35,674 nucleotides of DNA from Streptococcus danieliae (GTDB lineage: Bacteria > Bacillota > Bacilli > Lactobacillales > Streptococcaceae). The DNA lies in contig NZ_WSRS01000008.1 in the NCBI RefSeq assembly GCF_009767945.1, positions 1 to 35,674 on the forward strand, given 5' to 3'. A program made the translations under genes and the position numbers. Positions 5,220 to 28,990 of the stretch are shown here, one piece after another. The first letter of the stretch is position 1; the number at the start of each line of letters is the position of its first letter. Below the pieces are notes generated by a model. The model was not told the DNA's origin, did no database searches, and saw only the letters and a program-made list of their open reading frames with translations.

Positions 5220-5255
5220 CCCTTTAAAATGAAAATTTTGATTATCTCTTATACT
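5220..5255 (+). promoter_or_regulatory. 21-bp-spaced promoter element, copy A
   Basis: CCC-TTTAAA at 5220-5228, a spacer of exactly 21 bp, and TATACT at 5250-5255. The hexamer 17 bp before the -10 box is not like TTGACA. It lies 30 bases before the 5285 gene. It is one of nine copies in the window. Confidence 0.7.
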
Positions 5256-5284
5256 AAACTAATCACAGAAAAGGAGGCCAACAA

Positions 5285-5572
5285 ATGGCAAAAAAAGGTT
5301 TGAAAAAAATTGAATTGAAGTTAGAAAAAGCACTAAAACAAGTTGCAGTTTTGGAAGAAGAAAAAAGGATTGCAGAGGAAACTATTCAAAGAGAAATTGG
5401 GAAAAATTATTTTAAAATTCAAAAGAAAAAGAATAAAGAACAGACCTATGATTCTGTTTTGGAGGATTTAAAATTGGAACTTGCTGTCTTAAAAGAAGAG
5501 GAAAAGAAGCAGCGTTTGGAGAAGAGAGATGAATCAGAAACGGAGAATTTTTCAGGTGAATTTCCACAATAA
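5285..5572 (+). CDS. Small charged coiled-coil protein
   Basis: 95 residues, starting at ATG 5285 after AAAGGAGG. It is almost wholly helical, very rich in lysine and glutamate with heptad-like leucines (KKIELKLEKALKQVAVLEEE), and so probably a coiled coil. It is transcribed alone from promoter copy A and ends 26 bases before the likely oriT. That position suggests an accessory of the DNA-processing complex, but the sequence gives no direct proof of DNA binding. Confidence 0.7.
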   Translation: MAKKGLKKIELKLEKALKQVAVLEEEKRIAEETIQREIGKNYFKIQKKKNKEQTYDSVLEDLKLELAVLKEEEKKQRLEKRDESETENFSGEFPQ

Positions 5573-5597
5573 GGACGCTTTTAGACACAGATAATAA

Positions 5598-5670
5598 GTG
5601 TGTTTCAGTGTGTTATCCGAGTGTGTTATTGTACACACTAGTGTGTTTGAGTGTGTTATGTGTGTGTGTT
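5598..5670 (+). repeat. Six GTGTGTT iterons in two blocks with 43-bp period
   Basis: The copies at 5598, 5608 and 5621 recur as 5641, 5651 and 5664. The two-site unit GTGTGTTTCAGTGTGTTA at 5598 recurs at 5641 with one change. A 14-bp palindrome ACACACTAGTGTGT (5633-5646) covers the junction of the blocks. The 10-bp step places sites on one face of the helix, as expected for dimeric ribbon-helix-helix proteins; two such genes lie just downstream. Confidence 0.8.
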
Positions 5671-5758
5671 TCAGTAGGCGAAGCCGAGAGAATTTGGGGA
5701 CACGGGAAACGTTGATACTATCAACTCCCCACGGTATGTGGGGACAGTTTCCCTTATG

Positions 5759-5794
5759 CTCTTTTCACTAGTTTGGGCTAGAAATTCCTATTAT
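5759..5794 (+). promoter_or_regulatory. 21-bp-spaced promoter element, copy H, for the DNA-processing operon
   Basis: CTC-TTTTCA at 5759-5767, a 21-bp spacer, and TATTAT at 5789-5794. It is read into the genes at 5878-10717. Two iteron copies (5803 and 5813) lie at and just after the expected transcription start, so a protein bound to oriT iterons could also repress this promoter. Confidence 0.62.
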
Positions 5795-5877
5795 GTATTT
5801 GTGTGTGTCTCAGTGTGTTTAAAAATGGGATAAATTTTGTTTCATTGTCCGAGAGTTTAAAGATAGGAGTGACTGAT

Positions 5878-6219
5878 ATGAAAAAGAATCAAACAGAAAT
5901 TAAGATTCGGGGATTAAGTAATCATGAAGTTGAGTATTTAAAATCTATGGCAGAACAGAAAAAATTTAAATCTTTCAATGAATTTCTCGTAGCCATGTGT
6001 CGTGAGAAAATTGAGTATGGATATTTTAATGGAGCTCAAAGTTTGTATTTATCACATTTAGAAAATATGAAGTTGGCTTCGGATCATATGCTCTCACAGC
6101 TACAAAAGCAAGATAAAATTTTGACAGACTTAGATGCAAAAATGAATGATTATGGTCAGCGTATTTCTCGCTGGTTGGAATATGAGGGTGAGGTAGAAAA
6201 TCATGACCAGGGAAATTAA
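5878..6219 (+). CDS. Ribbon-helix-helix-like relaxosome accessory protein 1
   Basis: 113 residues from ATG 5878, which follows an AGGAG-type site; the frame is open back to 5803 but lacks a ribosome site there. Residues about 5-45 (TEIKIRGLSNHEVEYLKSMA, then a helix with SFNEFLVAM) fit a ribbon-helix-helix fold: a short basic strand and two helices. A helical tail follows. Such dimers bind iterons at oriT and help the relaxase. It is a paralogue of the next product and overlaps it by 17 bases. It probably binds the GTGTGTT iterons and may regulate its own operon; that is inference. Confidence 0.78.
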   Translation: MKKNQTEIKIRGLSNHEVEYLKSMAEQKKFKSFNEFLVAMCREKIEYGYFNGAQSLYLSHLENMKLASDHMLSQLQKQDKILTDLDAKMNDYGQRISRWLEYEGEVENHDQGN

Positions 6220-6565
6220 AATTCGGAATATATCATCTGGTACCTTGGAACAGTTACGAGAGATTTCTACAAAATATAACTATCCAAGTTTTAATGAATT
6301 TATGTTGGCGCAGGTTCAAAACATTGCCGTGAATGATGGATTGAATCTTTATCAAAATCAATTTGCGGAATTGTTGGCAGAGATTAAGTCCCAACAAAAT
6401 GAGATTTTAGAAATGCTGGTGAGGCAAGAAATTTCTCTCACAGCTTTAAATGTGAAACAGGATGTAGTAGAGGAATTGACAGTTTCCTGGTTAGAATTTG
6501 TAGATGATGTGGAGGCACTTGGCGTTGAACGAAATGAAGGGAGGATAATTCATGAAGAAAAATAA
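6203..6565 (+). CDS. Ribbon-helix-helix-like relaxosome accessory protein 2
   Basis: 120 residues. It starts within the preceding gene. EIKIRNISSGTLEQLREIST and the following PSFNEFMLAQV match the strand and second helix of accessory protein 1 (both have KIR near the start and SFNEF at about residue 30-36), so the two arose by duplication. The rest is helical and acidic. The two could form heterodimers on oriT. The gene overlaps the next one by 14 bases, so the operon is translationally coupled. Confidence 0.75.
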   Translation: MTREIKIRNISSGTLEQLREISTKYNYPSFNEFMLAQVQNIAVNDGLNLYQNQFAELLAEIKSQQNEILEMLVRQEISLTALNVKQDVVEELTVSWLEFVDDVEALGVERNEGRIIHEEK

Positions 6566-7307: not shown

Positions 7308-7308
7308 T

Positions 7309-7764: not shown

Positions 7765-7774
7765 GGAGGGAGAA

Positions 7775-8335
7775 ATGAAAGATATTATTGAAATATACTT
7801 AGAGACAGGTGATTTTCATGAATCTGTTAGACAGTCGGGCTTACCTACTCATATAGCTCATCTAAAACTGATTCAGAGTGGTTGTTTGAAAATTCAGGAT
7901 AAAATTAATTATGGTTCCAGAACAGCTAGACTTGGTGGTATGGCTAAAGAGCTTTTTCAGAAATATGTTCCATCTGCAACAGATGCTAATAAGTTTTTTG
8001 AGAAAAATAATCCTATCTATGATTTTTGGTTTGAAGGTCTAACGGTTGATGTAAAATACAGTTCCTTGCATAAAAAGAAAAATGGGAACACTTACTATTG
8101 GCATATTCGGACAAAAGGGAGTCAGGATTTTATAGTTGCTTTCTTGGAACGAGAAAGTGGTTTAGAATTAGAAAATTCAAATATTTTATTAATTCCCATG
8201 CAATTTATTGTTGATAAAAAGGATTTACATATTTCTCAATCAGGGGTATGGTTTAGTGAATTTAAGGTTGAATCTGAGGAATTACAACCATTGTTAAAAG
8301 ATTATGCCAGATTAAGAAAAGAAGGCTTATTCTGA
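7775..8335 (+). CDS. Helix-turn-helix plus PD-(D/E)XK-like protein next to the relaxase
   Basis: 186 residues. Residues 3-40 (DIIEIYLETGDFHESVRQSG and onwards) form a likely helix-turn-helix. Residues about 52-125 resemble a PD-(D/E)XK nuclease core: GGMAKELFQKY with E59, then D83 in IYDFWFEG and D92-V-K94, followed by a YYWHIRTKG strand and a QDFIVAFLE strand. Such cores hydrolyse DNA or act as structural DNA binders. The spacing E, D, DxK fits, but the fold is inferred from pattern only. It is cotranscribed with the relaxase, 15 bases upstream of it. Possible roles: relaxosome cofactor, exclusion function or restriction-like defence. Confidence 0.68.
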   Translation: MKDIIEIYLETGDFHESVRQSGLPTHIAHLKLIQSGCLKIQDKINYGSRTARLGGMAKELFQKYVPSATDANKFFEKNNPIYDFWFEGLTVDVKYSSLHKKKNGNTYYWHIRTKGSQDFIVAFLERESGLELENSNILLIPMQFIVDKKDLHISQSGVWFSEFKVESEELQPLLKDYARLRKEGLF

Positions 8336-10837: not shown

Positions 10838-10893
10838 GGCAAATTTTCTGAATCGTTAACATCATACATACACTGTTAATGATTTGCCTTTTT
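10838..10893 (+). terminator. Long interrupted hairpin with T tract
   Basis: GGCAAAT (10838-10844) pairs with ATTTGCC (10882-10888), and the inner TTAACA (10856-10861) pairs with TGTTAA (10874-10879); a TTTTT run follows. It may be a second terminator or an RNA structural element. The long interrupted stem is weaker than the hairpins on either side. Confidence 0.5.
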
Positions 10894-10922
10894 ATCAAAA
10901 AAACGTCAACTTTTCCTATAAT
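10887..10922 (+). promoter_or_regulatory. Weak ninth copy (I) of the 21-bp-spaced promoter element
   Basis: CCT-TTTTAT at 10887-10895, a 21-bp spacer, and a perfect TATAAT at 10917-10922. The upstream part matches less well than in the other copies. It would start an RNA that ends after about 35-40 bases at the next terminator. Confidence 0.4.
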
Positions 10923-10933: not shown

Positions 10934-10968
10934 AGTCGTCTCCAGTGGGGGGCGGCTTTTTTGTTTTG
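10934..10968 (+). terminator. Third hairpin terminator, related to the first
   Basis: AGTCGTCTCC (10934-10943) pairs with GGGGGCGGCT (10948-10957), with four G-T pairs and an AGTG loop, then a T-rich run. Sequence and shape resemble the terminator at 10784-10812 (both have a GTCTC left arm and a GGCGG right arm), so the two may be copies of one element. Confidence 0.72.
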
Positions 10969-10997: not shown

Positions 10998-11033
10998 CCC
11001 TTTACAAGAGATTTTTTAATGATTACTTAGACT
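10998..11033 (+). promoter_or_regulatory. 21-bp-spaced promoter element, copy B
   Basis: CCC-TTTACA at 10998-11006, a 21-bp spacer that begins AGAGATTTTT, and TAGACT at 11028-11033. It lies 28 bases before the 11062 gene, which leads the primase operon. It is near-identical upstream to copies C and F. Confidence 0.75.
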
Positions 11034-11061: not shown

Positions 11062-11322
11062 ATGGGCTTATTATTTCCAGGAGTCTCTTTAGACGAGTTT
11101 GATTTTCAAGAGGAATGGTTGGTGTTGGATCTGGATCCAGTTGGAAAGAACGTGACCTTTGGTGGTCTTGGTGCCAATTCAAAGCTTGAGTTGATGCTTG
11201 ATTTTAAAGAAAATCCCGAACAGTATTTTCAATTTGCAGTTGGGGACTTAGTTGAGTTGCCAGAAGATATGGTCAAGGACTCAAAACCTGAAGGCTATGT
11301 TCCGTTGTTTGAAAGATTTTAG
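11062..11322 (+). CDS. Small acidic protein of unknown function
   Basis: 86 residues, starting at ATG 11062 after AAAGGAG. It is acidic, with DEFDFQEEWLVLDLDP near the start and several short strands (KNVTFGGLGANSKLELML). It is the first gene under promoter copy B and lies 11 bases before the giant polyvalent gene, so the two are cotranscribed. I do not recognise the family. Confidence 0.72.
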   Translation: MGLLFPGVSLDEFDFQEEWLVLDLDPVGKNVTFGGLGANSKLELMLDFKENPEQYFQFAVGDLVELPEDMVKDSKPEGYVPLFERF

Positions 11323-11333: not shown

Positions 11334-14300
11334 ATGAATCATCAAGGAAAATCAAGAAGAGAACGAATTGAATATGCTCGTTCTCGTTCGATTTTGGATG
11401 TAGCTCGTGACCTGGGCATGGAACTCTTTCGTTCAGGTAAGGATTATCGTTGGAAGGAACATGATTCATTAGTCATTAATCCTGACAAGAACCTATGGAA
11501 TTGGTTTTCAAGGGAAGGTGAAGGAGGGGATGTTATTGCCCTTGTCGAGAGTATGAAGAAAGTCAATTTTAACCAGGCTATAGACTTTTTGAATGATAGA
11601 CAATTTAAAGATTTTCAATTAACTGAGTCTCGACGAGAAGCATTTCACTATTATTTAGAATCTTATGAGAAACCTTTGATCGAGGGACGGCAATTTCTAA
11701 AAGAACAACGGGGTCTTTCTGATGAGACGATTGATTTTTTCCTCAAGCAAGGGGTGCTTTCTCAAGCGAATGCGAAACTAGATGCTTTCTGGGATGAGCC
11801 TGCGAAACGCTTGGGTGGTCAGTCACTTCCGGAGCCTGTTATTGTGTTCAAGTCTCTATCTTTTTCTAAAGAGCTAGTAGGAGCTTCTTTGCAAGGAATT
11901 GAGGAAAACTGGGATAAATGGAGTAAACATGGCTATGCCAAGGTGATTCTGAAAAATTCGGATTCGCTAACAGGCTTTCATGTCGATATTGGCCAGCCTC
12001 AGCGTTTAGTTTTTGCAGAGTCTCCTATCGATCTCATGTCTTATTATCAATTAAAGAGAGAAGATCTAGCTGATGTTCGTTTGGTATCGATGAATGGATT
12101 GAAAGAATCAACCATCTCCTATCATCTAGCGCAGCTTGAAGCAGAATTGTCTGGCCGTCCATTGCATTGGACTAAAAAGGAGCTTGAAAAAGCCTTGGAT
12201 GCAGCCCTAGCAAGGGGTTATTTTGCGGACAACAAAAACCAGGGCAAAATTACTCTAGCAGTTGATAATGATGAGGCGGGAAGGAATTTTATTGGTTCCT
12301 TAGAGAGGAAAGGTGTGTCTGTCAGCGTTGATTTACCGCCGATTTTGGAGGAGGGACAGGTGAAGTCTGATTGGAATTATGTTCTCAAAAAGCAGTCTTC
12401 TAAACAAGGTGACTTGTTTCAAGATGTCGATATTCAAAGCGAAGTCGATGCCTATACTACATCAATCACACAGGATGATTCATCTTATTATTTATGGCAG
12501 GATGAAGAACTCCTAAATCTTGGAGCAGATGATGCTATCTTAGAGGATTTTCATAGTCTTCTGGAAGATCAACAGTATCAGATTGATGGAGTTCCCTTGT
12601 ACGTCGAAGAATCGGCTAATGATGGAGCAACGGGGTATCTTTCTATTGATGGGACTGTACTCGATAGGGACGGGATTCGAGACTATCTAGCTGAGCAAGA
12701 TTTTTCAGAACAAAGGTCGGTTGAGTTTCTCACTAAATTGGAGGATCAATTACCTGAAATTTGGGAGGACGTAGTGGAGCATTACAACCAAGCAGCTGAA
12801 AAAATTATGGAGAAATACAAGCTGGGGGAACAGCAAGATCCGTCTATTTCTCAGGTGAAAACCTATGATGAGATTAAACAAGAAAACAAGCAACTTGCTA
12901 AACGAATTGAAGAACGAATTAAAGCAGGGGAACTCACGATTAGTTTTGATACAGATGTTTACCTGTATGATGTTTTTAAAAAGCTTGGCAATAGCCATCC
13001 GACTAAGTATGTCAATGATAAACGATTCGAAATCCTGGCTCCCCTTAGATCAATCTTAGCCTCTATTGATGATGAAACCGTAAACCTGTATAAGAAGAAA
13101 GGGACGGTAGAACAAGATTCACTCTATCAAGCCCTAAAACCGTATCAGCGTACATTGAGCGTGGACATTTCAACCCGCTTTATTGGCGAATTGGCGATAG
13201 CTGCTTATAACACTAATAGGCAAGTCGAGAGTCTCTCAGGTGATCATTTTGGCCATTCCTACGGTGCGCAAACCCTCAATAGCCTGTCACAGTCTATTGA
13301 GCGGATGCTGGAATATCCTTTAATTGAATCAGGAGTTAGAGATTATAATTACGGGTTTGTGACGATTCCAAATGCTTTTTATCATTACCTGGATGAACAA
13401 GAGGGGGATCTTGTATTAAGCCGTTCTGACTTGGATTTGTTACTGGCACGAATTGAGGAACAGCCTCTTCAGGTAGTAGATGATATTCGAGAGGAAGGGC
13501 TTGTTGTTCCAAAAGCACAAGAAAAAGCCTTTGAAGTGAATCAAAAGGCTGGTCAAGTGCTAGCTCCAGAAGTAATCAAGATGGATTCAGCTAGATATTC
13601 CATCTATCAGGACTATTCTGTTTTTCTTAAAGAAGGTGTTGTCTACCTAGGAAAACACGATAACTATCAGGGTTCGCAAGGATACGATAATAGGGATCAG
13701 TCGCTGATACGGGTTTCTGATAATAAAAAGATGTGGTCATTGCTTTCGGAAGATGGATGGGTTTACCCTGTTCAAACGATGGTCAAAATGGGAACCTTTA
13801 CGGAATCAGATATACAGGAGTTTGAGGACTTGAAGTCAGGTCTATTGAAAGATTTGATCTTGCCACCGATTACTCAGTATTCAGTTCAAATTCAAAGCAC
13901 CACCCACCCTGATTTCACAAAAGAAAAGATTGATGAGGCTTATGTATCTCTGCATCCTAACTTGGAAGAATGGGGCTTAGTTCCTTATCGAGAATTCATG
14001 ACCGAATTGTATACAGCTAACCAAACTAGTAGTGAAGAGAGCTTTTCAATCGAGTTTAACATTCTCGCTAAATATCCCCATGAGAACATCCAATTAAAAC
14101 ATATTCATTATGAAATTGGACAGGAGACTGAGTCTTTAGGGGAGCGCTTGGGTTGGAGGATAGAGCAGCCCATACTTTACCAATTGGATCAGGAAGCTTT
14201 CAATGACGTGAAGGAGCAGATACAGGCTCATCAGGAAAAAGTAGACGAGTTGATTCAAGATATAGTATCGCTTGATGAAAAAGGCTTCTATTTGGAGCAG

Positions 14301-17300
14301 GATTCCGAATTATATGATAGGGGAGCTTCTTCTGATGAGATAGAAGTCTTCCATGGTTTAGTTCCAACTATTGAGAATAAGGATGATTTATTCACAGTAT
14401 CCCTTAAAAATTCTTCTGAGGTTGGAGTCAGTGGCTTCCTGGCTTTAAATGGGGATCCTATTGATGAATCGAATATTCATAATCATCTGGACAAGCTAGA
14501 TTTGAACTCTGAGTATCAACTTGCTTTCTTAGAGGATTTAAAGGCAGCCGTTTCTTCTACTTGGAATGAGGCAAAAACAGCTTATGACAAGGCATTTGAC
14601 GAGGTAGTGGCTATGTATAACTTGGAAAAGACAGGCAAGGATTATTTTGTCCGCTTTGAATTTTCAGAGCATGATTTTAACTATCAATCAGGAGAAATCA
14701 TTCCGTATGAGGCATTTGCGAGGGAGCTTTACAGTAAGTATCATTTTAGTCCCCAGGGCTATTATAAGACCTATTTTGAAGTTTTGGATGCGAATCAGGA
14801 ATCTATTTCAGGACAGATGCGAATCGATATTGGATCTGACTGGGAATCCATTGGTTTCTATCTGTCAGAAGGTAATCCTCATAAATCAGCTTTGTTAGAA
14901 AAAGATGCACTTGTGGTGAAAAGTTTAGATGAAGAGATTAAGGTAGCTGAACAAAAAGAAAAATCTCCTGAGAAAACTCAAGAGATTTTGGATGATAGGG
15001 CCAGTGTTGGGGAGGGTTTTTTACAACTCGAGGCTGAAGGCAGTACCAAACCCGTAGCAGAAACTGCTACCTTTGAGCAAACTGTTACCAGTCACCCGAC
15101 ATCACCCTATCATTACCTACATTTTAACACAAATTTTGAACCAGTACAAAGAAGAAAATCCAAGTATCACCCTATCAATGCAGAGGATCTGAAGCGAATG
15201 AATCAGTATTCTCCATCGATTCAAAGAACAGCTCAATGGTATTTGGATGAGCTATCAGGTAGTCATATTCATTATTTTTATTCTGATAAAGGAGAGATGA
15301 ATATACTGGATGTGTCATTCAAGCAAGAGAATTTTTTACACTTAACAGGAATTAGACCCATTGATTCTGTAAAACAGGCTTCTGATTTTGTAGTAGATTT
15401 TGCACAAGGCTATGGAAACTATAATCAAATATTGGTAAGCAATAACTTGAAGGATAAGTTACAAGTATTACCAATGTTAGAGGATATTTTGGATCCAACC
15501 TCATTTGTCTTAGATAACTTAGAAGAAGTCAGAACTGCTAAGCGTTTAAACCTGTCTGAGGCAATAAAAAGCAAGGATGAAGACTTCTTATTGCTGTTTA
15601 AAGATATTGGTGATGAGTTAGTACCAGCATCACTTATGAAAATTAAAGGTGAGATTAAAGCAGATTTGGATAACACTGATGAAAAAATCATTCTTGGTGT
15701 TTTTCGGAATCGTGATGGCATCATTGAACAACTTTCTATTAACGAGGAATACGTTAAAGACGGTGGCCAGGAAATGTTGTCTATCCTGCAAAATAAGCAG
15801 TATGAAGAGTCTATTGATGTTGAGACAGTTCAAGAGGTGAAGGAAAGTGTGGATAGAAGTATTGAAGAAATGTTAGGTACCAATGCAGCTAATAGTCTAG
15901 TTTCTTCCATCCCTCAAATTCAAGAGAATTTATCAGCTGAGAGAAATCTGCTAGCTATGGCTCAAGATGATGGTCGAGTCTTATATACAAATCAAGAAGA
16001 TTTTGGTCAGGAACATCAAGTAGAGCTAGTGGTACATAGTGGAATAGAGCTGAACCAACTATCTGAAGCACAGGCTCCATGGACTTTAGCACTTATCAAG
16101 GGAGAAGAAAAGTTGGGTTATCTTGCTTATGGTAGTGACTGGGGAAATGATTTTCAAATTGAAAATGAGCTAGAGAATATAGCTGGACAGATTAATTCTG
16201 TCCAGATTAGTGTAGCCGATTCAGGTCTCTATAAACAAGAGGAAGTGGAAGCTTTTCTTGCTTCTAATATTGAAAATACAGATGGCCAGGAAATGCTGTC
16301 TATTTCAGCTGAAGAATTTACACCTGTTTTAGATACTGCTTACAATCTAGGAGATGTTAGAAATCTAGGAATAGAGCCTCTTGAAAAATTTCAAGCAGCC
16401 TGGGAGCGTTATTATGAGCTTTCAGATGCTCATGAAGGTGATTTTACGGCTGTCGTTGAAGCTGCGGATCAATTAGGGTTGGTCAATAAAGAATCAGCTT
16501 TTTATCGGGACTGGAGTCAAGATCGTATTTATGAGGAAAGCTATCATGTACAGATTCAATGGTTTGAACGCTGGCCTGATAGCCCTCAGCTTCCGTTTAA
16601 CGAGATAGACCGTGTAGACTATCAGAGCTTTGCGGAAGTGCTTTATGAACAAAATAAGGCGTTTTATGAGCGGAATAAGGAGAGCGCAGAAATTGCCAAT
16701 GAAACAGGGAATCAGGACGCTTATATTCCTTACACCAAGATTAAATTTGATGTCTATGCTCCTGGAGGGAAACTGATTAAAGAAGGTGTTCGTTATAACA
16801 TCGGGGATGAAATTGAACCTATTTCAAGGCTTTTAGGGATGGGCTACCGTCGTTTGGAAGGTTATGAAGCCTTGGCCAAGATGGATGAAGAAATCTTCAA
16901 TCAACTGGAAAATAGGGTTACGGTTGCTGAAAATGATTCTCAGGTAGAGGAAGAGAGTTACGCTCTTAGACGGTCTAGAGCCAAGTTAGAACGCTTGAAA
17001 AAGGAGCGAGATGAGGCGATTGGTGCCGCTATGGATCATCAGAAACTAACAAATGGCCAGCCGATGAATGATAAACGGGGTGGTCAATCTTTCTTGAAAA
17101 AACAAGGCCAGAAAGAAGACAAGGTCTTTGCTCTGTTAGATGAAATTAAAAAACAAGAAGAAAAGGTAGCGTCTTTAGAGGATAAGGAGCGCTGGAAGAA
17201 ACAAGGATTAAACCGTAGGGGAACAGGACTTGATATTAGTGTAGAGAACATTCCTCTGATTGAAGCCGAAATCGCTAAGGCTGAGAAGGGTGAAGGTTCT

Positions 17301-18906: not shown

Positions 18907-18942
18907 CCCTTTACAAGAGATTTTGGAAGTATTTCTTATGAT
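18907..18942 (+). promoter_or_regulatory. 21-bp-spaced promoter element, copy C
   Basis: CCC-TTTACA at 18907-18915, a spacer of 21 bp beginning AGAGATTTTGG, and TATGAT at 18937-18942. It lies directly after the terminator and 24 bases before the AAA+ gene. Confidence 0.78.
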
Positions 18943-18965: not shown

Positions 18966-20801
18966 ATGAAACAGGTAACACCATTTTTAGAGAAGTATAC
19001 GGATAATCTATCTCAGAAGGTTGCTAAAAAGTCCGAAGATTATCAGGTTTACGGTCGAGAAAAAGAGATCCGGGCGGTTCAAATCTCCTTACTCAGACGA
19101 AGCAAGAATAATCCCATTTTAGTGGGAGAGGCTGGAGTCGGAAAGACTGCGATTGTTGAAGGGCTGGCCTTGGCCATTTTAAAGGGTGAGGTCGCTCCTC
19201 GACTGAGAAATTTAACAGTTCGCTCTTTAGAATTATCCAGTTTGATGTCAGAAGCCGATGGGGGCTTTATTGTGAAGTTTAAAAAGATTATTGAGGAGAT
19301 GATTGAAACGAGAGGCGAGAATCTTCTCTTTATTGATGAGCTTCATACAATTGTGGGTGCTGGAGGTCAAGAAGGGCAAGCGCTGGATGCTGGAAATGTC
19401 ATTAAGCCTGCCTTAGCACGTGGAGATATTCAGCTGATTGGGGCTACAACGCTTGATGAATTTCACGAGTATGTTGAAACGGATCGAGCGTTAGAGAGAC
19501 GGATGCAGCCTGTGATGGTGGCGGAGCCGACCATTCCCCAAGCCATTGAGATTTTAAAGCAGGCAAAATTCATTTATGAGAACTTTCATCAGGTAAAGAT
19601 TAGTGATGAGGCAGTGAGACAAGCCGTGGTACTATCGGTTCGCTATCTGACCGATCGTTTTTTACCGGATAAGGCCTTTGATCTGATTGATGAGGCAGCA
19701 ACAATTGCTTCAGCTGAAAATCTGAATCTGATTACGGATCGAGAGATTGCGCAAGTAATCAAGGATAAAACAGGAATCCCGGTGACCACGATTTTAAAAG
19801 CCGATCGAGAACGGCTAGCAGGTTTAAAAACAAAGATTATGGAACGGGTCAAGGGACAGGATGAGGCCGTGGATACAGTGATTAATGCGGTTACGATTGC
19901 CCAGGCAGGGCTACAGGATGAAAACAAGCCGATCTCTTCTTTTCTCTTTTTGGGATCGACTGGTGTTGGAAAGACTGAGTTAGCCAAAGCTTTGGCAGAG
20001 GGACTTTTTGATGATGAGGCTGCCATGATTCGTTTTGATATGTCTGAGTATAAGCAGAAAGAGGATGTCACAAAATTAATAGGAGATCGAAAAACAGGGA
20101 CTAAGGGCTTATTGACAGAGGGAGTTAAACGGAAGCCTTACTGTGTGCTATTGATCGATGAGATTGAGAAGGCGAACGGGGAGGTTGTTGACTTGTTTCT
20201 CCAGGTGCTAGATGATGGACGTTTGACAGATTCGTCAGGGCGACTAGTGAGCTTTAAGAATACGATTGTTGTGATTACAACCAATATCGGAGCGCAAAAA
20301 ATTATCAAACAGTATGAGCTGAAGGGCAGTTTTAAGGATTTAACAGTCAGGGATCGGAAACAGTTTGAGAAAAGCATGGGAACAGAATTAAGAACAGAGT
20401 TCCGACCTGAATTTCTGAACCGAATTGAGCATAAGCTGATTTTTAATATGCTAGATGAAATGGTTGGGAAGGAAATTATTGTGAAAAACCTTCAAAAAAT
20501 GAAGGAGAGAATGGCCAATAAACAGCTTTTGTTTGCTTATTCGCCTGAGCTAGTCGATTATTTGTCAGATGTCGGAACGGATGTAGAGAATGGGGCACGG
20601 CCTTTGGAGCGGATTATCAAACAGAAGATTTTAGCCCCGATAGCCAAAATGAGCCTTGATTTAGAAGACAATGGCTTGGCTCACCGTATCTATGCCTGGA
20701 TCGATGGAGAAGCCCCTGATGAATATCATCGGATTGATCAGCGAGAGATTCGTTTTGATATTCAGTCTGACGATTTATTTTTAAATGAATCAGTGATGTG
20801 A
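18966..20801 (+). CDS. ClpA-like AAA+ ATPase without N-domain and with altered pore loops
   Basis: 611 residues, starting at ATG 18966 after AAAGGAGG. It has two AAA+ modules: Walker A GEAGVGKT (54-61) and Walker B LLFIDE (120-125), then Walker A GSTGVGKT (330-337) and Walker B LLIDEIEK (395-402), with intact arginine-finger regions (RALERRM, FRPEFLNRIE). It lacks the roughly 140-residue Clp N-domain and the coiled-coil middle domain. The first pore loop, usually KYRGEFE, reads GGFIVKF (99-105). The second, usually GYVG, is replaced by DRKTGTKG (374-381). The IGF/VGF ClpP-docking loop is not seen. So a chaperone-like remodeller acting without ClpP is likely. It is a single-gene unit under promoter C. 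Confidence 0.88.
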   Translation: MKQVTPFLEKYTDNLSQKVAKKSEDYQVYGREKEIRAVQISLLRRSKNNPILVGEAGVGKTAIVEGLALAILKGEVAPRLRNLTVRSLELSSLMSEADGGFIVKFKKIIEEMIETRGENLLFIDELHTIVGAGGQEGQALDAGNVIKPALARGDIQLIGATTLDEFHEYVETDRALERRMQPVMVAEPTIPQAIEILKQAKFIYENFHQVKISDEAVRQAVVLSVRYLTDRFLPDKAFDLIDEAATIASAENLNLITDREIAQVIKDKTGIPVTTILKADRERLAGLKTKIMERVKGQDEAVDTVINAVTIAQAGLQDENKPISSFLFLGSTGVGKTELAKALAEGLFDDEAAMIRFDMSEYKQKEDVTKLIGDRKTGTKGLLTEGVKRKPYCVLLIDEIEKANGEVVDLFLQVLDDGRLTDSSGRLVSFKNTIVVITTNIGAQKIIKQYELKGSFKDLTVRDRKQFEKSMGTELRTEFRPEFLNRIEHKLIFNMLDEMVGKEIIVKNLQKMKERMANKQLLFAYSPELVDYLSDVGTDVENGARPLERIIKQKILAPIAKMSLDLEDNGLAHRIYAWIDGEAPDEYHRIDQREIRFDIQSDDLFLNESVM

Positions 20802-20837
20802 CCCTTTATAAGCGTTTCGCTTATGATTCTGTATACT
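20802..20837 (+). promoter_or_regulatory. 21-bp-spaced promoter element, copy D, with a palindrome in the spacer
   Basis: CCC-TTTATA at 20802-20810, a 21-bp spacer, and TATACT at 20832-20837. Unlike the other copies, the -35 side and spacer hold a perfect inverted repeat ATAAGCG-ttt-CGCTTAT (20808-20824). It starts the pilin operon, and the palindrome may be an extra operator there. Confidence 0.68.
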
Positions 20838-20868: not shown

Positions 20869-21222
20869 ATGAAATATCATTTGACAAACCCGTTTAAGAA
20901 GGTAAAAGAAAAGCTAGACTTTGTGGCAATACCCTTTGCTACTTTTCTAGCTTCAGTACTTCCTACATCGGTGTCTGCGGACGATCCCTTTGCAAAGGTA
21001 AATACTTTATCCAATCAAGGAGTTACAAAATTCCAGGGAATTGCTATCGGTATCTTTTCACTCGCTCTGGTTGTGACAGGACTTATTTACGGCTTTGGCG
21101 GTCGTGAAATTAGAGCTAAGATTAAAGAGTATTGGTGGGCAATTGCGCTTGCAGTTGTGGTCGTATTTGCTGGAGTAAGTATTGTAACGTGGCTCGCTGG
21201 TTTTGTGAAGGGATCGGGGTAA
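20869..21222 (+). CDS. VirB2/TrbC-like pilin precursor
   Basis: 117 residues with a positively charged N-terminus, a hydrophobic signal (VAIPFATFLASVLPTSVSA) and probable signal peptidase cleavage after SVSA (about residue 37), leaving about 80 residues. Two membrane segments follow (about 58-78 and 88-110), separated by a short charged turn GGREIRAKIKEYW. This is the VirB2/TrbC layout: a major subunit that lines the transfer channel or pilus. It is the first gene of the pilin operon, with a ribosome site AAAAGGAGG. Confidence 0.8.
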   Translation: MKYHLTNPFKKVKEKLDFVAIPFATFLASVLPTSVSADDPFAKVNTLSNQGVTKFQGIAIGIFSLALVVTGLIYGFGGREIRAKIKEYWWAIALAVVVVFAGVSIVTWLAGFVKGSG

Positions 21223-22377: not shown

Positions 22378-22413
22378 ACCTTTAGAAACTATTTGAGGAT
22401 TATTTTGTAGACT
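22378..22413 (+). promoter_or_regulatory. 21-bp-spaced promoter element, copy G
   Basis: ACC-TTTAGA at 22378-22386, a 21-bp spacer, and TAGACT at 22408-22413, ahead of the 22446 and coupling-protein genes. Its upstream half is the second-weakest match, but the spacing is exact. Confidence 0.6.
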
Positions 22414-22445: not shown

Positions 22446-22679
22446 ATGGATAGTCTACAAGATCATTTTATTGACGATCTGCTGGCGGATTCTCTGCAGG
22501 CAGCTAGTTATTTAAGACAGATGAGTTGTTGCCATCTACAGGTTTTTACCTATGATTGCCAGCAATGGATGGGGAATTACCTCAAGAGATACTGGGCGGC
22601 TTCCCCAGAAATTCAATTACAAATCTTTTTGTTTTCGGGATTCTCTGCTCCTAGGAGGGAGGTAGAACAGATTGATTGA
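22446..22679 (+). CDS. Small protein of unknown function cotranscribed with the coupling protein
   Basis: 77 residues, with AAAGGA and a 6-base spacer before ATG 22446. It has helical content with a pair of cysteines (SCCHLQVF) and many aromatic residues; no signal peptide. It overlaps the coupling protein start by 8 bases, so its translation may control that of the next gene. I do not recognise it. Confidence 0.68.
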   Translation: MDSLQDHFIDDLLADSLQAASYLRQMSCCHLQVFTYDCQQWMGNYLKRYWAASPEIQLQIFLFSGFSAPRREVEQID

Positions 22680-25600
22680 TTTACTTGAAATATCGCTCTA
22701 TATACTCATGCAGTTGTCCAAGAAAAACACGGTCTTATTTATCATCCTACTAAGTTTAGTGAGCTATTTGGGATATAGGGGGTTAAAAATTGGATGGCCA
22801 TCTATTCATAGATGCAGCAAAGGTCTAGTTGCAGCTGTTAGAGATCCAAGGAAGATTCTCATTCAATTGAAAAGTTTGAAGAAAGTAGAGACTTTGCGGA
22901 AGGTTTCATTATGGCTACCAACTTATATCGGTCTGTGGTTGGGAAATCTCCTTTTTCGTCTAGTTTATACCCTCCCTTTCATAGGCCGTAAGCGGAAACG
23001 GTTCAACAAAGAGGTCAAACCGATTCTAGCTTTTAAAACCTTCCAGAGCTTTATTTACATGGGGCTTGGCTTTAGCTTCCTTGCTTTTTTACTGACAAGT
23101 TATTTAGTGACCGTTCTTCGAGCGATTATTCCCTATCTCTATTTCATGGTTTTATCCATTAAGGATGAAAGCCTCTATAGAGCCTTTGACTGGACGAGTT
23201 TGTTGATCCAAAATCTTTTGAATGCACGGGTCTTTGTCTTGGCTCCAATTCTAGCTTTTCCAATTTTTACTTTAGGTTTAATCGCTGCTTGGAGATCCGC
23301 TTGGATTAATTTTGAGCAGTATCGTGATTACAATCATAATGAGGAAGGAGACGATCGCTTTGCGACTATTAAAGAGATTCATCAGCAGTACAAGAAAGTC
23401 CCAAACAAGAGACTGACTTATCCAGGTGATGGTGGGGTGCCTGTTCTACATGAAACGAGGAAAAATTTAGCTGGTGTAACCTTAGCTTCTCAGATGAAGT
23501 GGCAGAATCGAACAGTTGGTAGGTATATCTATCAGGCACAGAGGATCTTAGGAAATTTAGGACAAGTGTCTGGGGATTACTATATAGAAGATGCTACGGT
23601 TAATCTTTTGGATATTGGGATCACCCGATCTGGTAAAGGGGAAAGCCGTGTAGCTCCAATTATCGATATTAATAGTCGAGCAGAAAAGCAGCCTTCGATG
23701 GTCATTCAGGATCCCAAGGGAGAACACTATCAAGCTTCTTATAAAACCATGCGAAAGCGTGGCTATGATGTCGAAGTTTTGTCCTTCCAGAATATGGATT
23801 GGTCAATGTCCTACAATCCCTTAGAGTTAGCGATTGCGGCCGCCAAAAGGGGATATTATGAAAAGGCTCAGACTCGTGTCAATGCCGTTGCAGAAGCGAT
23901 TTTCCCGCAGCCAAAAGGCGGAGGCAAGGGAAATTCAGAATACTTCCGGAAGTCCTCTATTTCATTGTTTAATGCCTTGACTATGGCGCTTATAGATCGA
24001 GCTAATGAAACTTTTCAAAATGGCGAGGAGGATGCCTGGGACACCATTACCATCCACAATATTGCTAAATTTTTGGCGAATTTGGGATCAGAGGATGTAT
24101 TTGTAGATAGTGATGGGGAAATCGTTGAAAACCCAGAAAAAGGACAGAGTGTCTGGAAGAAGTCTAAACTAACCGTTTATTTTGATAATCTCCGCAAAGT
24201 CAATCAAAAGCAGTTTTCTAAATTTAGACAGATGGCAGATATAGAGTTCCGAGCTTCGGATTTTGGAGGCGATGAGACAAAAGGAAATGTCTACTCCAGC
24301 ATGATGACGGGAATCAACCTATTCCTTCAAGACAATGTGGCCAAGTTGACTTCTAAAAATTCTATTGATTTGGAATCGGTGGGATTTCCAAGGCGCTTAT
24401 CGGTCAAGCTTCGTTCTAGTCGGAACCGCTTGATGGAGAATGAGTTTACCCATAAAACCGCTAGAATTACCATTAAAGATGCTAGAAACGGTAAAGTCTA
24501 TGTTCAAAATGCGACAGCCTTAATTGATGCGGAAGGTTATCTGACCTACTGTATTGCTCCTAAATTGCCTAATCAATTTGTGATCTCGATCGATTTTGAT
24601 CATGACAATAATGGAACTTCAGCTATTCGTTCTGTAGAAATTCAATTCTCAGCTGAAAAAATCTATGGGGGAGTGGATTCTTATACAGGTAAGCCCTCGT
24701 TAAGGGGTCTTCAAATTAGGATTGATAAAGCTAGCCAGTCCCTGATTAAGGAGCAGGATGTGGAGTTGATTTACTCAGACAATCCAAAAATCATTTATTT
24801 AGTAACTCCTCCCAATCGAACCGAATACAATTCGATTGTCTCGCTCTTCTTAGATCAGTTGTTTAATGCCAACTATGAGCTGGCCTTATCGAATGGTCGA
24901 AAATGTATCAATCGGATTCTCCATGTTCTAGATGAGTTTACAAACATGCCAGCCGTTCCGAACATGGATACTAAAATTTCAATTGGTCTTGGCCAGAATA
25001 TCTTGTATTATCTCTGGATTCAAAATTTAGAGCAGCTGGTGGCTGAGTACGGTGAGAATGTAGCTAAAACGATTCAGGATAACTGTTCACTTCAGGGCTA
25101 TATTAAGTCGACGTCACAAGAAACCAATGAACGTTTCAGCAAGCGCTTAGGCAGTCGAACCATTACTCGGAGAAGACGGTCAAGCAACATTCTCGATGAA
25201 GCCAATCCAAATGTTTCAGTCGATCATGTACGACAAGAATTGTTGACTCCTACACAACTGGCCAAACTCCAAGAGGGTGAGGCCGTGATTCTACGAGGTG
25301 TCAAAGGTCGGAATAATCAAGGTCACAAGGTAACGACTGATCCTATTTTCCTTCACGACAAGACTAGCCTGCCTTATCGTTACATGTTCCTACAAGAGGA
25401 GTTTGACCAGTCTATGACCTTGGCAGATATTCCAGTTGAAAGTGAACACCGGAACTTGAATTTACAAGATGTGGCTATCGATGGTGAAAGAGCCTTTAGA
25501 AACCTGATTGACTGGCGCCGTCACCTCAATGCCGGCCTCGGCAGCAATACAGGAGAGAGTCCAAAATTAGCAAGTCGAGGCAGGACTCAGATTCAAGGGC

Positions 25601-25731
25601 AGCCCCAAGCAGTCCAGTCGACTGAAGAATTATTTGAAGTCGCAGTAGCTAGTGTGATTGGCGGTGATGTTTTACCTGGCTATGAGGAGAGCTTCCTAGA
25701 CGATGATTTCTTCGTGGATGATGTGATGTAG
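22672..25731 (+). CDS. virD4: VirD4-type coupling protein (large Gram-positive, CD1115-like)
   Basis: 1019 residues, starting at TTG 22672 after AGGAGGGAGG with about 9 bases between. Several membrane segments lie in the first 215 residues. The P-loop is GITRSGKGES with K322, followed by a VIQDPKGEHYQ motif and Walker B LDEFTNMP (D754-E755), typical of TraG/VirD4 proteins, which draw the relaxase-DNA complex to the channel using ATP. A beta-rich insertion of about 150 residues (about 570-720) lies between the Walker motifs. The C-terminus is acidic (DDDFFVDD), a possible partner contact. It is the class of Firmicutes ICE proteins often named CD1115 family. Confidence 0.92.
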   Translation: MIDLLEISLYILMQLSKKNTVLFIILLSLVSYLGYRGLKIGWPSIHRCSKGLVAAVRDPRKILIQLKSLKKVETLRKVSLWLPTYIGLWLGNLLFRLVYTLPFIGRKRKRFNKEVKPILAFKTFQSFIYMGLGFSFLAFLLTSYLVTVLRAIIPYLYFMVLSIKDESLYRAFDWTSLLIQNLLNARVFVLAPILAFPIFTLGLIAAWRSAWINFEQYRDYNHNEEGDDRFATIKEIHQQYKKVPNKRLTYPGDGGVPVLHETRKNLAGVTLASQMKWQNRTVGRYIYQAQRILGNLGQVSGDYYIEDATVNLLDIGITRSGKGESRVAPIIDINSRAEKQPSMVIQDPKGEHYQASYKTMRKRGYDVEVLSFQNMDWSMSYNPLELAIAAAKRGYYEKAQTRVNAVAEAIFPQPKGGGKGNSEYFRKSSISLFNALTMALIDRANETFQNGEEDAWDTITIHNIAKFLANLGSEDVFVDSDGEIVENPEKGQSVWKKSKLTVYFDNLRKVNQKQFSKFRQMADIEFRASDFGGDETKGNVYSSMMTGINLFLQDNVAKLTSKNSIDLESVGFPRRLSVKLRSSRNRLMENEFTHKTARITIKDARNGKVYVQNATALIDAEGYLTYCIAPKLPNQFVISIDFDHDNNGTSAIRSVEIQFSAEKIYGGVDSYTGKPSLRGLQIRIDKASQSLIKEQDVELIYSDNPKIIYLVTPPNRTEYNSIVSLFLDQLFNANYELALSNGRKCINRILHVLDEFTNMPAVPNMDTKISIGLGQNILYYLWIQNLEQLVAEYGENVAKTIQDNCSLQGYIKSTSQETNERFSKRLGSRTITRRRRSSNILDEANPNVSVDHVRQELLTPTQLAKLQEGEAVILRGVKGRNNQGHKVTTDPIFLHDKTSLPYRYMFLQEEFDQSMTLADIPVESEHRNLNLQDVAIDGERAFRNLIDWRRHLNAGLGSNTGESPKLASRGRTQIQGQPQAVQSTEELFEVAVASVIGGDVLPGYEESFLDDDFFVDDVM

Positions 25732-26392: not shown

Positions 26393-26396
26393 GTTG

Positions 26397-26432
26397 CCCT
26401 TTAAAAGAAATTTTTAATTTATTCCTTATGAT
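26397..26432 (+). promoter_or_regulatory. 21-bp-spaced promoter element, copy E
   Basis: CCC-TTTAAA at 26397-26405, a 21-bp spacer beginning AGAAATTTTT, and TATGAT at 26427-26432. It lies directly after the lipoprotein terminator and 33 bases before the VirB6-like gene. Confidence 0.75.
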
Positions 26433-26464
26433 AGAATCATCAAATAGAAAGTAGAGGATTTTTC

Positions 26465-28642
26465 ATGAGGTATGGCACCTTTTCAGATTTAATGCATGAA
26501 GTAGAAAAACTTGATGGGGATATTCAAGGAGATAACGCTGTAAAATTGGCAGAGTTTTATTCCTATTGGATTAATTACTTAGAACCAGCCCCAGCTTTTT
26601 TGTCCTATCTATCTCACCTACCAGGAGGTATTGCTAAGGTTTTTTACCAAATCACAGTTAGTTTAGAACATGTGTTTAATAATATGTTTAAGTTATTTGG
26701 CTTATTTGGCTACCTGGGGGATAATTCGACCTTGATTGGTCAATTTTTCTATTGGTTTCAAGTGCTGGGAACAAGCATATTTACCTTAGTTCTGATTATT
26801 TCGGCTTTGCTTGGAGTGTTCACAAAACCTGTTAAGTATAAAAATGTGATTACTAATTTTTTGTTGGTCACTTTTATGACAACGGCTTTGCCTTTAGGAT
26901 TAACGATTATCACACAAGCAATGGCTGAGGATGCCCGAGCCATTCAAACCCTGTCTTCTGGGAAGGAAGATTATTCTTCCCTGGCTATTCAGCCCATCAA
27001 AAATAATGTGGTTGATCTAAAAATTTTAGTGGACAATGATTTTTCAACAAAACTGTTTCCGCTTGATAATTATGGATATATCAAACCTGTTCAGGAAGGA
27101 TCAACTCCCGTCAATAATATTACAGATGATCCCGAGAAAAGAGATACACTTGATTTTGTGACCAAAATTGATTTTGCGGCTACCTATGGTGCTACAAATG
27201 GAGTAGTTCTTGATGATATGGAGATCGAATTTGATGAGAAATATGGAGTGAAGGGAATTAAGGGCTTATTCCTTCATAGGCTAGATGCTAATCAGACTGG
27301 TGTTGAGACCATCACAGAACATCGATTTGTGAACGGTTTAAATGCTTTTGAACCTGTTTATATGAGGTACAAGGTAAACTGGATTGGAATGTTTATCCAG
27401 TATGGTATTCTGATGATTCTTTTAGGTACCATGGCCTTTAAATTTGTTAAATCGGTTTTCGATATTATCATTCAGGCTATGATTTCTCCCATTGTCGGTT
27501 ATAGCTCCGTTTCCAAGTCTACCAAGTATAAAGAATTACTGAGGACTATTGGAGGTGCTCTAGCAGGGATTATGTTTGAGGTGATCATCATTCGAGTTGT
27601 TTTAGAAATTTGTCGAGATTTACCAACCTTGTCTGTCTCTGCGGTTACCAAGTTATCAGGTGGTTTCTTTGATGGGCTAAATATGTGGGAACAGGTATTA
27701 TCGGCTTCTTTAGTCTATCTAGGCTTGTTCTATGCGACGATGCAAGGAATTGCCATGGTCGAACGTTGGTTGGGTGTGTCTACAGCTCAAAGCGATTCAG
27801 CTCAACAATTGATGAGTTCTGTGATGGCTGGAAATGCGCTTTTCAATGGCGCTCGTGGATTTGGGCATGGTGCTCTGGCTGCAGCTGATATGGGTGCTAA
27901 TCTTGCAGGGGCAGTACCTGGATTTGTGGCTGGAGGAAGTCGGGTTATCGGAAATAGCTTGTCTGCTACAGGTGGAGGTCTTCGTGGCTTTGGTGATGCT
28001 GTAAAAGATCAAGGTTTTGTGAATACTGCAACTGGCGGATTAAGTAACATGGTCAACCTGGCCGATGCGATGGGGCAAGATGCAGTTGGGAAGGTGAAGG
28101 ATTTTGCTGGAGGTGTCGCAGATAATCTAAGTCAGAAAGAGCAAGCTGGTCATGATGCGACTTATGCTGCCTTTAAAAATCCAGCAGCTGAACCTAAAGT
28201 AGGCTTTAATTCTAAGATGAGTGCCAATGCTGACTATGGTTTGAATCGTTCCGGGCATTATGGAGGAGAACCTCTCTTCTCAGATTCTGCCTCTGGTACT
28301 GGTTCGTCTCTAGGGACAAACACTAGTTCATCCGGTGGAGGAATCACAGATCCTACCTTGGCGGCAACAGATCTCTCAGCTCCTGATTTTACAGGTATTA
28401 GTGATCCTAGTCCTGTAGGTGCTGGAAATTATTCCAATGTGAGCGCTCCGAATCTGTATCCGGAGACAAGTCAGGATCCGTTGCTATCTGGTCAGAAAGT
28501 GGATCAAGAGAGGTTATCCTCAAACCAGAAATCGAACATTCCTAATGTAACCTCGCAGGTTGATCCGTTTGGTGCTCCTAGCGAACCTCTGCAGAGTCAA
28601 AATCCGCTGAGAGGTCTAGAATTTGATGAAGATGAAGGGTAG
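26465..28642 (+). CDS. VirB6/TrbL-like polytopic membrane protein
   Basis: 725 residues, starting at ATG 26465. Hydrophobic segments lie in the first 165 residues (around QVLGTSIFTLVLIISALLGV and FLLVTFMTTALPLGLTIIT), then an outside domain (about 170-300) and more segments at about 305-450 (FIQYGILMILLGTMAFKFV and following). This is the VirB6/TrbL inner-membrane channel layout. The C-terminal 270 residues are soluble, glycine-, serine- and alanine-rich, with poor sequence complexity, and probably lie in the cytoplasm or outside. It is the first gene of the operon from promoter E. Confidence 0.82.
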   Translation: MRYGTFSDLMHEVEKLDGDIQGDNAVKLAEFYSYWINYLEPAPAFLSYLSHLPGGIAKVFYQITVSLEHVFNNMFKLFGLFGYLGDNSTLIGQFFYWFQVLGTSIFTLVLIISALLGVFTKPVKYKNVITNFLLVTFMTTALPLGLTIITQAMAEDARAIQTLSSGKEDYSSLAIQPIKNNVVDLKILVDNDFSTKLFPLDNYGYIKPVQEGSTPVNNITDDPEKRDTLDFVTKIDFAATYGATNGVVLDDMEIEFDEKYGVKGIKGLFLHRLDANQTGVETITEHRFVNGLNAFEPVYMRYKVNWIGMFIQYGILMILLGTMAFKFVKSVFDIIIQAMISPIVGYSSVSKSTKYKELLRTIGGALAGIMFEVIIIRVVLEICRDLPTLSVSAVTKLSGGFFDGLNMWEQVLSASLVYLGLFYATMQGIAMVERWLGVSTAQSDSAQQLMSSVMAGNALFNGARGFGHGALAAADMGANLAGAVPGFVAGGSRVIGNSLSATGGGLRGFGDAVKDQGFVNTATGGLSNMVNLADAMGQDAVGKVKDFAGGVADNLSQKEQAGHDATYAAFKNPAAEPKVGFNSKMSANADYGLNRSGHYGGEPLFSDSASGTGSSLGTNTSSSGGGITDPTLAATDLSAPDFTGISDPSPVGAGNYSNVSAPNLYPETSQDPLLSGQKVDQERLSSNQKSNIPNVTSQVDPFGAPSEPLQSQNPLRGLEFDEDEG

Positions 28643-28647
28643 AGAGA

Positions 28648-28929
28648 ATGGATTTCAAAGATAAGATAGTTGTTATTACAGGAAGTCTACGGCCTCTCAG
28701 TCGTAAGGATGCTATTCGTTTGCTTGAAGCTAGGGGTGCAATTGTACATGCTTATATTTCAGCGGCTACAAATATTTTAATCACAGGTCACCGCCAATTG
28801 GATCTCTTTCAACCAGAGAAGCGATCCAAGAAGTACCAGGCAGCTATGCGAAGGATAGCAGAGGGGCAAGTGATTGAAATTGTGACGCAGGATCGATTTT
28901 TTCAGTTAGTAAAGGAGTCTCAGAGATGA
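28648..28929 (+). CDS. Stand-alone BRCT-domain protein
   Basis: 93 residues that form a single BRCT-like fold, similar to the C-terminus of bacterial NAD-dependent DNA ligase: KIVVITGSLRPLSRKDAIRL, then LLEARGAIVHAYISAATNILI and a buried C-terminal helix (RFFQLVKES). BRCT domains bind DNA ends, gaps or protein partners. With no ligase attached, it may dock on DNA or on host repair proteins. It begins 5 bases after the VirB6-like stop. The 3' end carries the operon terminator. Confidence 0.85.
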   Translation: MDFKDKIVVITGSLRPLSRKDAIRLLEARGAIVHAYISAATNILITGHRQLDLFQPEKRSKKYQAAMRRIAEGQVIEIVTQDRFFQLVKESQR

Positions 28930-28942
28930 GACTTCTTTTTTT
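28916..28942 (+). terminator. Rho-independent terminator overlapping the BRCT gene 3' end
   Basis: AGTCTCA (28916-28922) pairs with TGAGACT (28927-28933) around a GAGA loop, then TC and seven T. The BRCT stop codon TGA (28927-28929) is part of the right arm, so coding and termination share the same bases. Confidence 0.9.
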
Positions 28943-28954
28943 GCAGTGAAGTGA

Positions 28955-28990
28955 CTCTTTACAAGAGATATTGGTTTTATTTTTTACCAT
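28955..28990 (+). promoter_or_regulatory. 21-bp-spaced promoter element, copy F
   Basis: CTC-TTTACA at 28955-28963, a spacer of 21 bp beginning AGAGATATTGG, and TACCAT at 28985-28990. It heads the longest channel operon (29017-35160). The -10 box is the poorest of the set, so it may depend most on an activator. Confidence 0.65.

Follow-up and report, generated by a model that had tools for sequence, protein, structure and literature searches.

Known systems and the element under study

Transfer control by one element-encoded activator and one motif placed before many transfer operons has been described for AcaCD of IncA/C plasmids and SetCD of SXT/R391. In this study, we analysed a stretch of 35,674 bp from Streptococcus danieliae (assembly GCF_009767945.1, contig NZ_WSRS01000008.1, positions 1 to 35,674; hereafter the window), in which the transfer operons of a mobile element are likewise headed by copies of one promoter motif and in which open reading frame (ORF) 599-1111 probably encodes the regulator, as judged from comparisons of sequences. 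While AcaC and AcaD are two-subunit FlhCD-like activators of Gammaproteobacteria, the candidate presented here belongs to a single small protein family of Lactobacillales without a match to FlhC or FlhD.

The element resembles TnGBS elements in the MobL relaxase, VirD4, VirB4-like, and pilin genes of the window and in an ISLre2-type transposase of four syntenic relatives, which is the transposase type used by TnGBS (PMC3942029). In the openly readable part of the TnGBS literature, we found neither a description of the promoter family and its regulator, which subscription papers may contain, nor an account of how TnGBS-type elements switch transfer on. Element-encoded transfer control in Firmicutes is also known from ICEBs1, the genes of which are driven from the major promoter Pxis, repressed by ImmR (PMC9956884), whereas in the element studied here seven separate promoters share one signal.

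Seven promoter copies in the window

A first-pass annotation of the window had proposed nine promoter copies with a spacer of exactly 21 bp between a distal box and the -10 box. All nine strings were found with this spacer, but only seven rose above chance. A weight matrix was derived from the seven mutually similar copies, and each copy was re-scored with itself left out against both strands (71,270 positions, training sites excluded). The copies at 5220, 10998, 18907, 20802, 22378, 26397, and 28955 each ranked first of the 71,270 positions. Their lowest leave-one-out score (20.88) was reached by one of 1000 dinucleotide-shuffled joined intergenic sequences and by none of 200 shuffles of the whole window, the shuffled sequences being scored with the full seven-site matrix. 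Based on these ranks and shuffle rates, the seven copies are true members of the family, and they withstood the comparison with shuffled intergenic DNA on which the first-pass annotation had staked its claim, while the copy at 5759 proved to be at chance level.

This unsupported copy (5759..5794, plus strand) was outscored by four other positions, and its score of 6.58 was reached in 501 of 1000 intergenic shuffles. The four syntenic relatives also lacked a site in the corresponding interval, from the 5285 homologue to the 5803 homologue. The copy at 10887..10922 (plus strand), already described as weak, was outscored by 544 other positions and was rejected.

Several copies had been reported to lie directly after terminators. 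Folding of stretches picked by hand revealed stable hairpins with U-runs directly upstream of five of the seven (10998, 18907, 22378, 26397, and 28955; z-scores of -2.85 to -6.14), which supports separate transcription units, although a simple terminator scan listed only the one at 10934 among them. The stretches upstream of 5220 and 20802 folded no better than shuffles. For the normal sigma-A promoters ascribed to the lipoprotein and parA genes in the first-pass annotation, scanning for the sigma-A consensus provided no backing, as it gave no more sites than in shuffled sequence.

Conservation and promoter architecture

Four syntenic elements were compared with the window, namely E5 (Streptococcus metagenome-assembled genome), E13 (S. 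varani), E19 (Streptococcus sp. WB01_FAA12), and E9 (S. sanguinis). Using a refined matrix, seven sites were detected in each of them, matching the seven window operons by order. The scan of related elements that had been suggested along with the promoter family also covered VirB4 loci of the genus, and the motif headed corresponding operons in 24 of 24 Streptococcus loci, with one to three sites in each; matches above the threshold on the minus strand were limited to one in the first scan round. The streptococcal-type motif was absent from the two VirB4 loci of Ligilactobacillus and Enterococcus scanned in this way, and all VirB4 relatives in plasmid records were below 60% identity.

The consensus across elements consists of TTGTCCNNTTA at positions -46 to -36 in a box extending to -31, ATTATC at -21, and a sigma-A-like -10 box, without a -35 box. 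Among 74 divergent sites, TTGTCC at -46 to -41, TTA at -38 to -36, a GCA-like part up to -31, and ATTATC at -21 to -16 were conserved, T(-12), A(-11), and T(-7) of the -10 box were invariant, and conservation peaked at promoter positions and dropped off outside. The motif is longer than first described: across elements, conservation also covers TTG (-46 to -44) and ATTATC (-21 to -16). In the window copies, GT at -44/-43 was present in only two of seven.

A TTGACA-like -35 box is lacking, as had been stated: no enrichment was seen at spacers of 15 to 19 in the 74 sites (mean matches of 1.20, 1.78, 1.45, 1.97, and 1.57 compared to 1.71 at random positions), and four or more matches occurred in at most two of the 74 sites at any of these spacers. 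The spacer between the distal box and the -10 box is exactly 21 bp throughout the window, but among the distinct sites of the related set, surveyed with half-matrices derived from sites aligned at 21, it was 21 in 89, 20 in three, and 23 in one. Of 99 distinct sites with scores above 14, 98 were followed within 100 nt by a loosely defined Shine-Dalgarno sequence and a start codon.

Candidate regulator

According to the first-pass annotation, the regulator was not recognisable in the window, and a gene always occurring with the motif was to be sought. Here the annotation has to be corrected, as co-occurrence and covariation led to a candidate within the window, ORF 599-1111, the family of which is the conserved gene nearest the left end in the relatives. 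Homologues were found in 22 of 147 genomes of the genus, in 23 of 24 motif-bearing Streptococcus genomes picked by VirB4, and in 42 of 284 genus genomes, 43 of which harbored the motif. In this last survey, motif and gene occurred together in 39 genomes, the motif only in four, the gene only in three, and neither in 238 (Fisher p = 9e-40).

As for the four motif-only genomes, about 1 kb of contig precedes the first site of G157, G016 revealed one site before remnants of the VirB4 operon, and G090 and G254 each carried a single site before a RepA_N gene. The gene-only genomes were G121, G148, and G201, the last with a fragment of 36 amino acids. In G107 and G164b, the candidate gene starts only about 100 nt from the element end, which leaves little room for a promoter of its own, so that its expression may be governed by the end itself, by flanking DNA, or by circularisation.

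Library searches with the 599-1111 protein revealed no Pfam, NCBIfam, or PHROGs family at an E value of 0.001 and only sub-threshold helix-turn-helix (HTH) matches. When 18 homologues were compared with Pfam and NCBIfam up to an E value of 1, neither FlhC/FlhD-related families nor a sigma family (region 2 and 4 domains) appeared among the matches, though a very divergent sigma factor could escape such profiles. No PHROGs family described as a phage late activator of the ArpU/RinA type was matched up to the same value, though undescribed PHROGs families among the matches may conceal one. A profile search against solved structures gave chance-like matches only (best E = 0.047). No viral contig showed a match to the single protein, and one locus was retrieved with the alignment; plasmid records yielded two distant homologues, both from Ligilactobacillus salivarius. 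The locus from the viral collection (L139) corresponds to the left portion of a related element, including the regulator and the motif, and is therefore probably not purely viral.

An element-specific box that varies with the candidate regulator

The distal box is element-specific, whereas the proximal part of the motif is largely shared. In five full elements, distal positions differed in 17.6% among the operons of one element compared to 39.8% for the same operon between elements; the corresponding values were 43.1% and 58.3% for the middle part and 21.8% and 20.6% for the proximal part. One E19 site with a 20-bp spacer was shifted by one base in this comparison, so that the within-element distance comes out larger. 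None of 5000 shuffles of the element labels gave within-element distances as small as those observed, for the distal, middle, and proximal parts alike. Distal boxes are of different types, e.g., CCCTTTA in the window and CCGCTTACTGCA as another.

Such a difference was also present within the source genome, where T at -39 in seven of seven window sites was replaced by C in six of six sites on contigs C172, C239, C230, and C176. These contigs carry gene sets fitting a second element, which they presumably form together, and regulator homologues that differ from that of the window; on C172, no motif site was detected before the homologue of 22446. The proposal that one element-specific switch governs the transfer operons is well supported, since the motif heads corresponding operons across elements and the distal box changes in concert within each element.

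Within the regulator family, a helix-like segment varied with the box: SYKQLRRGW occurred with CCCTTTAAAA, NTRLRRNW with CYSCTTAAYRCA-like boxes, and SYKKLRSDW with TTAGAGCA. An altered segment (SYKQLIRGR) was found in E13 and G095, and GTCC at -44 to -41 is missing from seven of seven E13 sites and two of three G095 sites.

Distance matrices of regulator and box were compared in two sets. The first comprised 20 elements, excluding multi-regulator genomes (L094, L101, L108, L113), duplicates of the E elements (L097, L098, L104, L109), and L103, C172, and C239, while L112 with three equal-scoring copies and several near-identical elements of the S. oralis group were retained; the second comprised 15 of the 25 regions anchored on the regulator. 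Correlation with the box was r = 0.78 for the HTH part and 0.86 for the N-terminal part in the 20 elements and 0.66 and 0.87, respectively, in the 15, and it persisted after controlling for other genes. For the 14 of 25 regions holding a motif and all of 12 shared genes, the partial correlation of each gene with the box was determined. The regulator gave the highest value (0.63, p = 0.0005), and apart from genes 11062 and 1198, which are considered below, the remaining values were at most 0.09.

Homologues in Enterococcus and Ligilactobacillus

Among 395 sampled genomes of the order, only two non-streptococcal genomes, one of Ligilactobacillus and one of Enterococcus, harbored a 599-1111 homologue. 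The homologue of Enterococcus diestrammenae (35% identity over 151 residues) is located just upstream of the relaxase. In this genome, TGTCCC-N27-TANNNT, i.e., the exact streptococcal geometry, was present at nine plus-strand sites, four of them on the VirB4 contig (L118) and five on the contig of the regulator, with one additional match on the minus strand. Homologues of operons that carry the motif in streptococci (11062, pilin, coupling protein, 26465, and 29017) follow five of the nine sites, and the remaining four lie before the 3749 and 5803 homologues, an ORF near 8027, and an ORF at 12352 of L118.

TGTCCC ranked first among all 6-mers at the streptococcal offset (nine of 17 plus-strand copies, p = 2.5e-11, or about 1e-7 once corrected for 4096 words). 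As TGTCCC had been suggested by a de novo motif search on L118, only the five sites of the regulator contig count as independent evidence, and the four of L118 do not. This search did not clearly outperform shuffled sequence, as it scored 100.0 on L118 compared to up to 98.6 in shuffles and 79.9 on L117 compared to up to 86.5, the shuffles having fewer restarts.

Proposed mechanism and alternative explanations

Altogether, we consider it rather probable (about 70%) that the seven copies form one regulon in which an element-encoded activator, the product of 599-1111, works with sigma-A polymerase at promoters without a -35 box. Sigma-A RNA polymerase would recognise the -10 box (TA at -12/-11, T at -7), while the 599-1111 protein would bind the box from about -46 to -31, and perhaps -21 to -13 as well, replacing the -35 contact and turning the transfer operons on together. 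Every element lineage would own its version of protein and box, by which co-resident elements would keep separate circuits. We infer binding of the box by the 599-1111 protein, activation rather than repression, sigma-A as the sigma factor, and the start sites. A comparable arrangement is known from the MotA-type middle promoters of T4, in which the place of the -35 box ahead of a good -10 box is taken by the site of an activator, though position and length of the box differ from those found here.

Several observations weigh against this explanation. The activator at about -40 in place of a -35 box, as originally proposed, is plausible, but the conservation at -21 to -13 exceeds what a simple -40 site would predict, so that a second contact or a sigma-like role is possible. 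The survey models were partly built from the surveyed genomes and the survey therefore shows association rather than independent validation, and genes that travel together on one element cannot be told apart by co-occurrence. G121 has a large share of the transfer region along with a divergent regulator but no detectable motif, and the Ligilactobacillus genome harbors homologues but neither the streptococcal motif nor a comparable 6-mer signal. No HTH family scored above its cut-off for the 599-1111 family in the library searches, and the predicted structures from a single sequence and from two rows were poor (predicted local distance difference test, pLDDT, of 44.9 and 53.6).

Further such points come from the covariation itself. 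Agreement with the box is closer for the N-terminal part than for the HTH part, and in the first set the 14-residue recognition segment fell short of significance once other genes were controlled for (partial correlation of 0.20, p = 0.07). Control genes correlate with the box as well through common descent, and partial correlations remain for gene 11062 (0.49, p = 0.0015), second to the regulator, and for gene 1198 (0.28, p = 0.02). In the second set, the regulator also correlated with the proximal part (r = 0.31 to 0.65), which carries some element signal too, as none of the label shuffles matched it. Finally, the window box is relaxed at -44/-43 despite a near-standard helix segment, which disfavours a simple one-to-one reading of helix and box; helix changes do not account for every change of the box.

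Concerning the sigma-like role, a dedicated alternative sigma factor of the element, with the distal and proximal boxes as equivalents of its -35 and -10 elements, would account for the long conserved stretch at -21 to -13 next to the -10 box, which is unusual for a classical activator promoter. The HTH-like C-terminal part of the 599-1111 protein (our own reading) and its size, which is like that of small sigma factors, would also fit. We nevertheless regard this as unlikely, since the 18 homologues matched no sigma family of Pfam or NCBIfam up to an E value of 1, T-12, A-11, and T-7 are key bases of sigma-A itself, and a -35 element would sit closer to the -10 box than the distal box does.

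Slightly less probable is another element protein as the specificity factor, e.g., that of 5803-6219, 6203-6565, 1428-1865, or 11062-11322. Of the 25 regulator-anchored regions, 21 contained the 1428 family and 20 the 5803/6203 family, and 11062 keeps the partial correlation mentioned above, but the values for 5803 (-0.21), 6203 (-0.02), and 1428 (0.08) contrast with the 0.63 of the regulator. Furthermore, the 5803/6203 family is missing from the G084 and G012 regions, which have motif and regulator though they are decayed, and 11062 belongs to no Pfam family. The products of 5803-6219 and 6203-6565 are ribbon-helix-helix-like in our own reading, also without a Pfam family.

That the 599-1111 protein represses these promoters instead of activating them appears improbable. 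The conserved stretch at -21 to -13 beside the -10 box could be an operator, but there is no -35 box to give basal activity, and repression alone does not explain the strict spacing to the -10 box (21 bp in 89 of 93 distinct sites). Recent duplication of one promoter without any trans-acting factor would make the distal parts of one element alike, but it is very improbable given that proximal parts are equally alike between and within elements, that conservation is focused on promoter positions, and that the same geometry recurs in Enterococcus.

Putative satellites and significance

In genomes G090, G221, and G254, a replication gene stands behind the motif in surroundings where no transfer genes were seen, followed by surface-protein genes resembling the cargo of E19. 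The replication protein of G221 matches Pfam RepA_N (58.3 bits, cut-off 30), and in G122 the same replication-gene block adjoins a coupling-protein operon. Out of 30 RepA_N loci returned, 20 were scanned, and the motif was present in three and absent from 17. The loci listed in Table 1 share adhesin-like cargo with E19, and L206, L207, and L240 also show the left-end small-ORF region of the elements.

RepA_N loci behind the motif may be satellites using the switch of a helper, or decayed elements. They recall SGI1, in which AcaCD sites were predicted before its own genes including S004/rep (PMC4207636). It is conceivable, though doubtful at present, that a new family of mobile-element proteins in Lactobacillales captures sigma-A polymerase at promoters without a -35 box, that diverged specificities avoid cross-activation, and that satellites with RepA_N behind a helper promoter replicate only at helper transfer.

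As a candidate gene is named, seven promoters are defined, and specificity varies naturally between elements, the question of the transfer switch becomes directly testable. Element-specific boxes would account for the coexistence of several related elements in one genome without mutual triggering. The motif can also serve to identify further genes and satellites of the regulon.

Operons, gene content, and ends of the element

Coordinates of the promoters, the candidate regulator, and the motif copies before RepA_N-type genes are given in Table 1.

Table 1. Promoter copies (positions -42 to -7 of the motif), candidate regulator, and motif copies before RepA_N-type genes.
Feature	Position	Strand	Remarks
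Motif promoter 1	5220..5255	+	Heads 5285-5572, perhaps on to the downstream relaxase; counterpart in E5, E13, E19, E9
Motif promoter 2	10998..11033	+	Heads 11062-11322 and gene 11334-18875 (2513 amino acids); preceded by terminator hairpin
Motif promoter 3	18907..18942	+	Heads ClpB-like AAA+ gene 18966-20801; hairpin upstream
Motif promoter 4	20802..20837	+	Heads TrbC/VirB2 pilin gene 20869-21222; corresponding sites in relatives
Motif promoter 5	22378..22413	+	Heads 22446-22679 and VirD4 coupling protein 22672-25731; hairpins upstream
Motif promoter 6	26397..26432	+	Heads pLS20_p028-type membrane protein gene 26465-28642; hairpin upstream
Motif promoter 7	28955..28990	+	Heads 29017-29322 and split VirB4 (29322-29969, 29980-31929); hairpin upstream
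Candidate master regulator	599..1111	+	170 amino acids; C-terminal part HTH-like (own reading); based on co-occurrence, covariation, and Enterococcus homologue
Motif before RepA_N-type gene	L204:7468	-	Few or no transfer genes
Motif before RepA_N-type gene	L206:8611	+	Few or no transfer genes
Motif before RepA_N-type gene	L207:7701	-	Few or no transfer genes
Motif before RepA_N-type gene	L240	-	Few or no transfer genes

Domain searches of the window revealed a MobL/MobP2 relaxase and a CD1115-type VirD4 protein above the family cut-offs, as well as the ClpB-like AAA+ protein, the VirB2 pilin, and the pLS20_p028-type membrane protein. VirB4 was recognised by sub-cut-off matches only (120.5 and 27 bits compared to 590). 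Its halves are encoded by two adjacent genes (29322-31929) and are neighbours in the relatives too; the larger gene is 99% identical to a gene of Streptococcus danieliae strain STR. Between the third site and the AAA+ gene, E5, E13, E19, and E9 harbored a topoisomerase-like gene (own reading) that is absent from the window.

Evidence for the transposase comes from the relatives, as that of the element itself lies outside the window. E13 encodes an ISLre2/p-MULT3 DDE transposase (NF033529, 216.6 bits, cut-off 200), and homologues with 71-78% were found in E5, E19, and E9; those of E5 and E9 lie immediately internal to the right terminal repeat. Insertion 15-17 bp upstream of a host sigma-A promoter is characteristic of TnGBS-type elements. 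Terminal repeats were located in the relatives but not in the window. The left end GTGGTAAGAGTTTTTAGA was present in 22 of the 25 regulator regions, with the exception of the window, G012, and G121, and a terminator-like hairpin follows it in those ends that were inspected. Short elements of G107 and G164 (L123, L133, and L136), with terminal repeats about 10 kb apart, have kept the regulator, few left-end genes, one motif before the homologue of 26465-28642, and a homologue of the ISLre2-type transposase.

For the last c. 190 bases of the window (35478-35674), 11 matches at 95-98% exist elsewhere in the genome, on other contigs. At least eight of these lie at contig ends, so that the contig of the window stops in a repeat. 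The sole long non-nested minus-strand gene (2797-3732) has close homologues in E5, G012, and G095 and weak or no homologues in the other regions, and it is likely cargo. A small BRCT-domain protein (28648-28929) is encoded within the transfer region and has been kept in the relatives.

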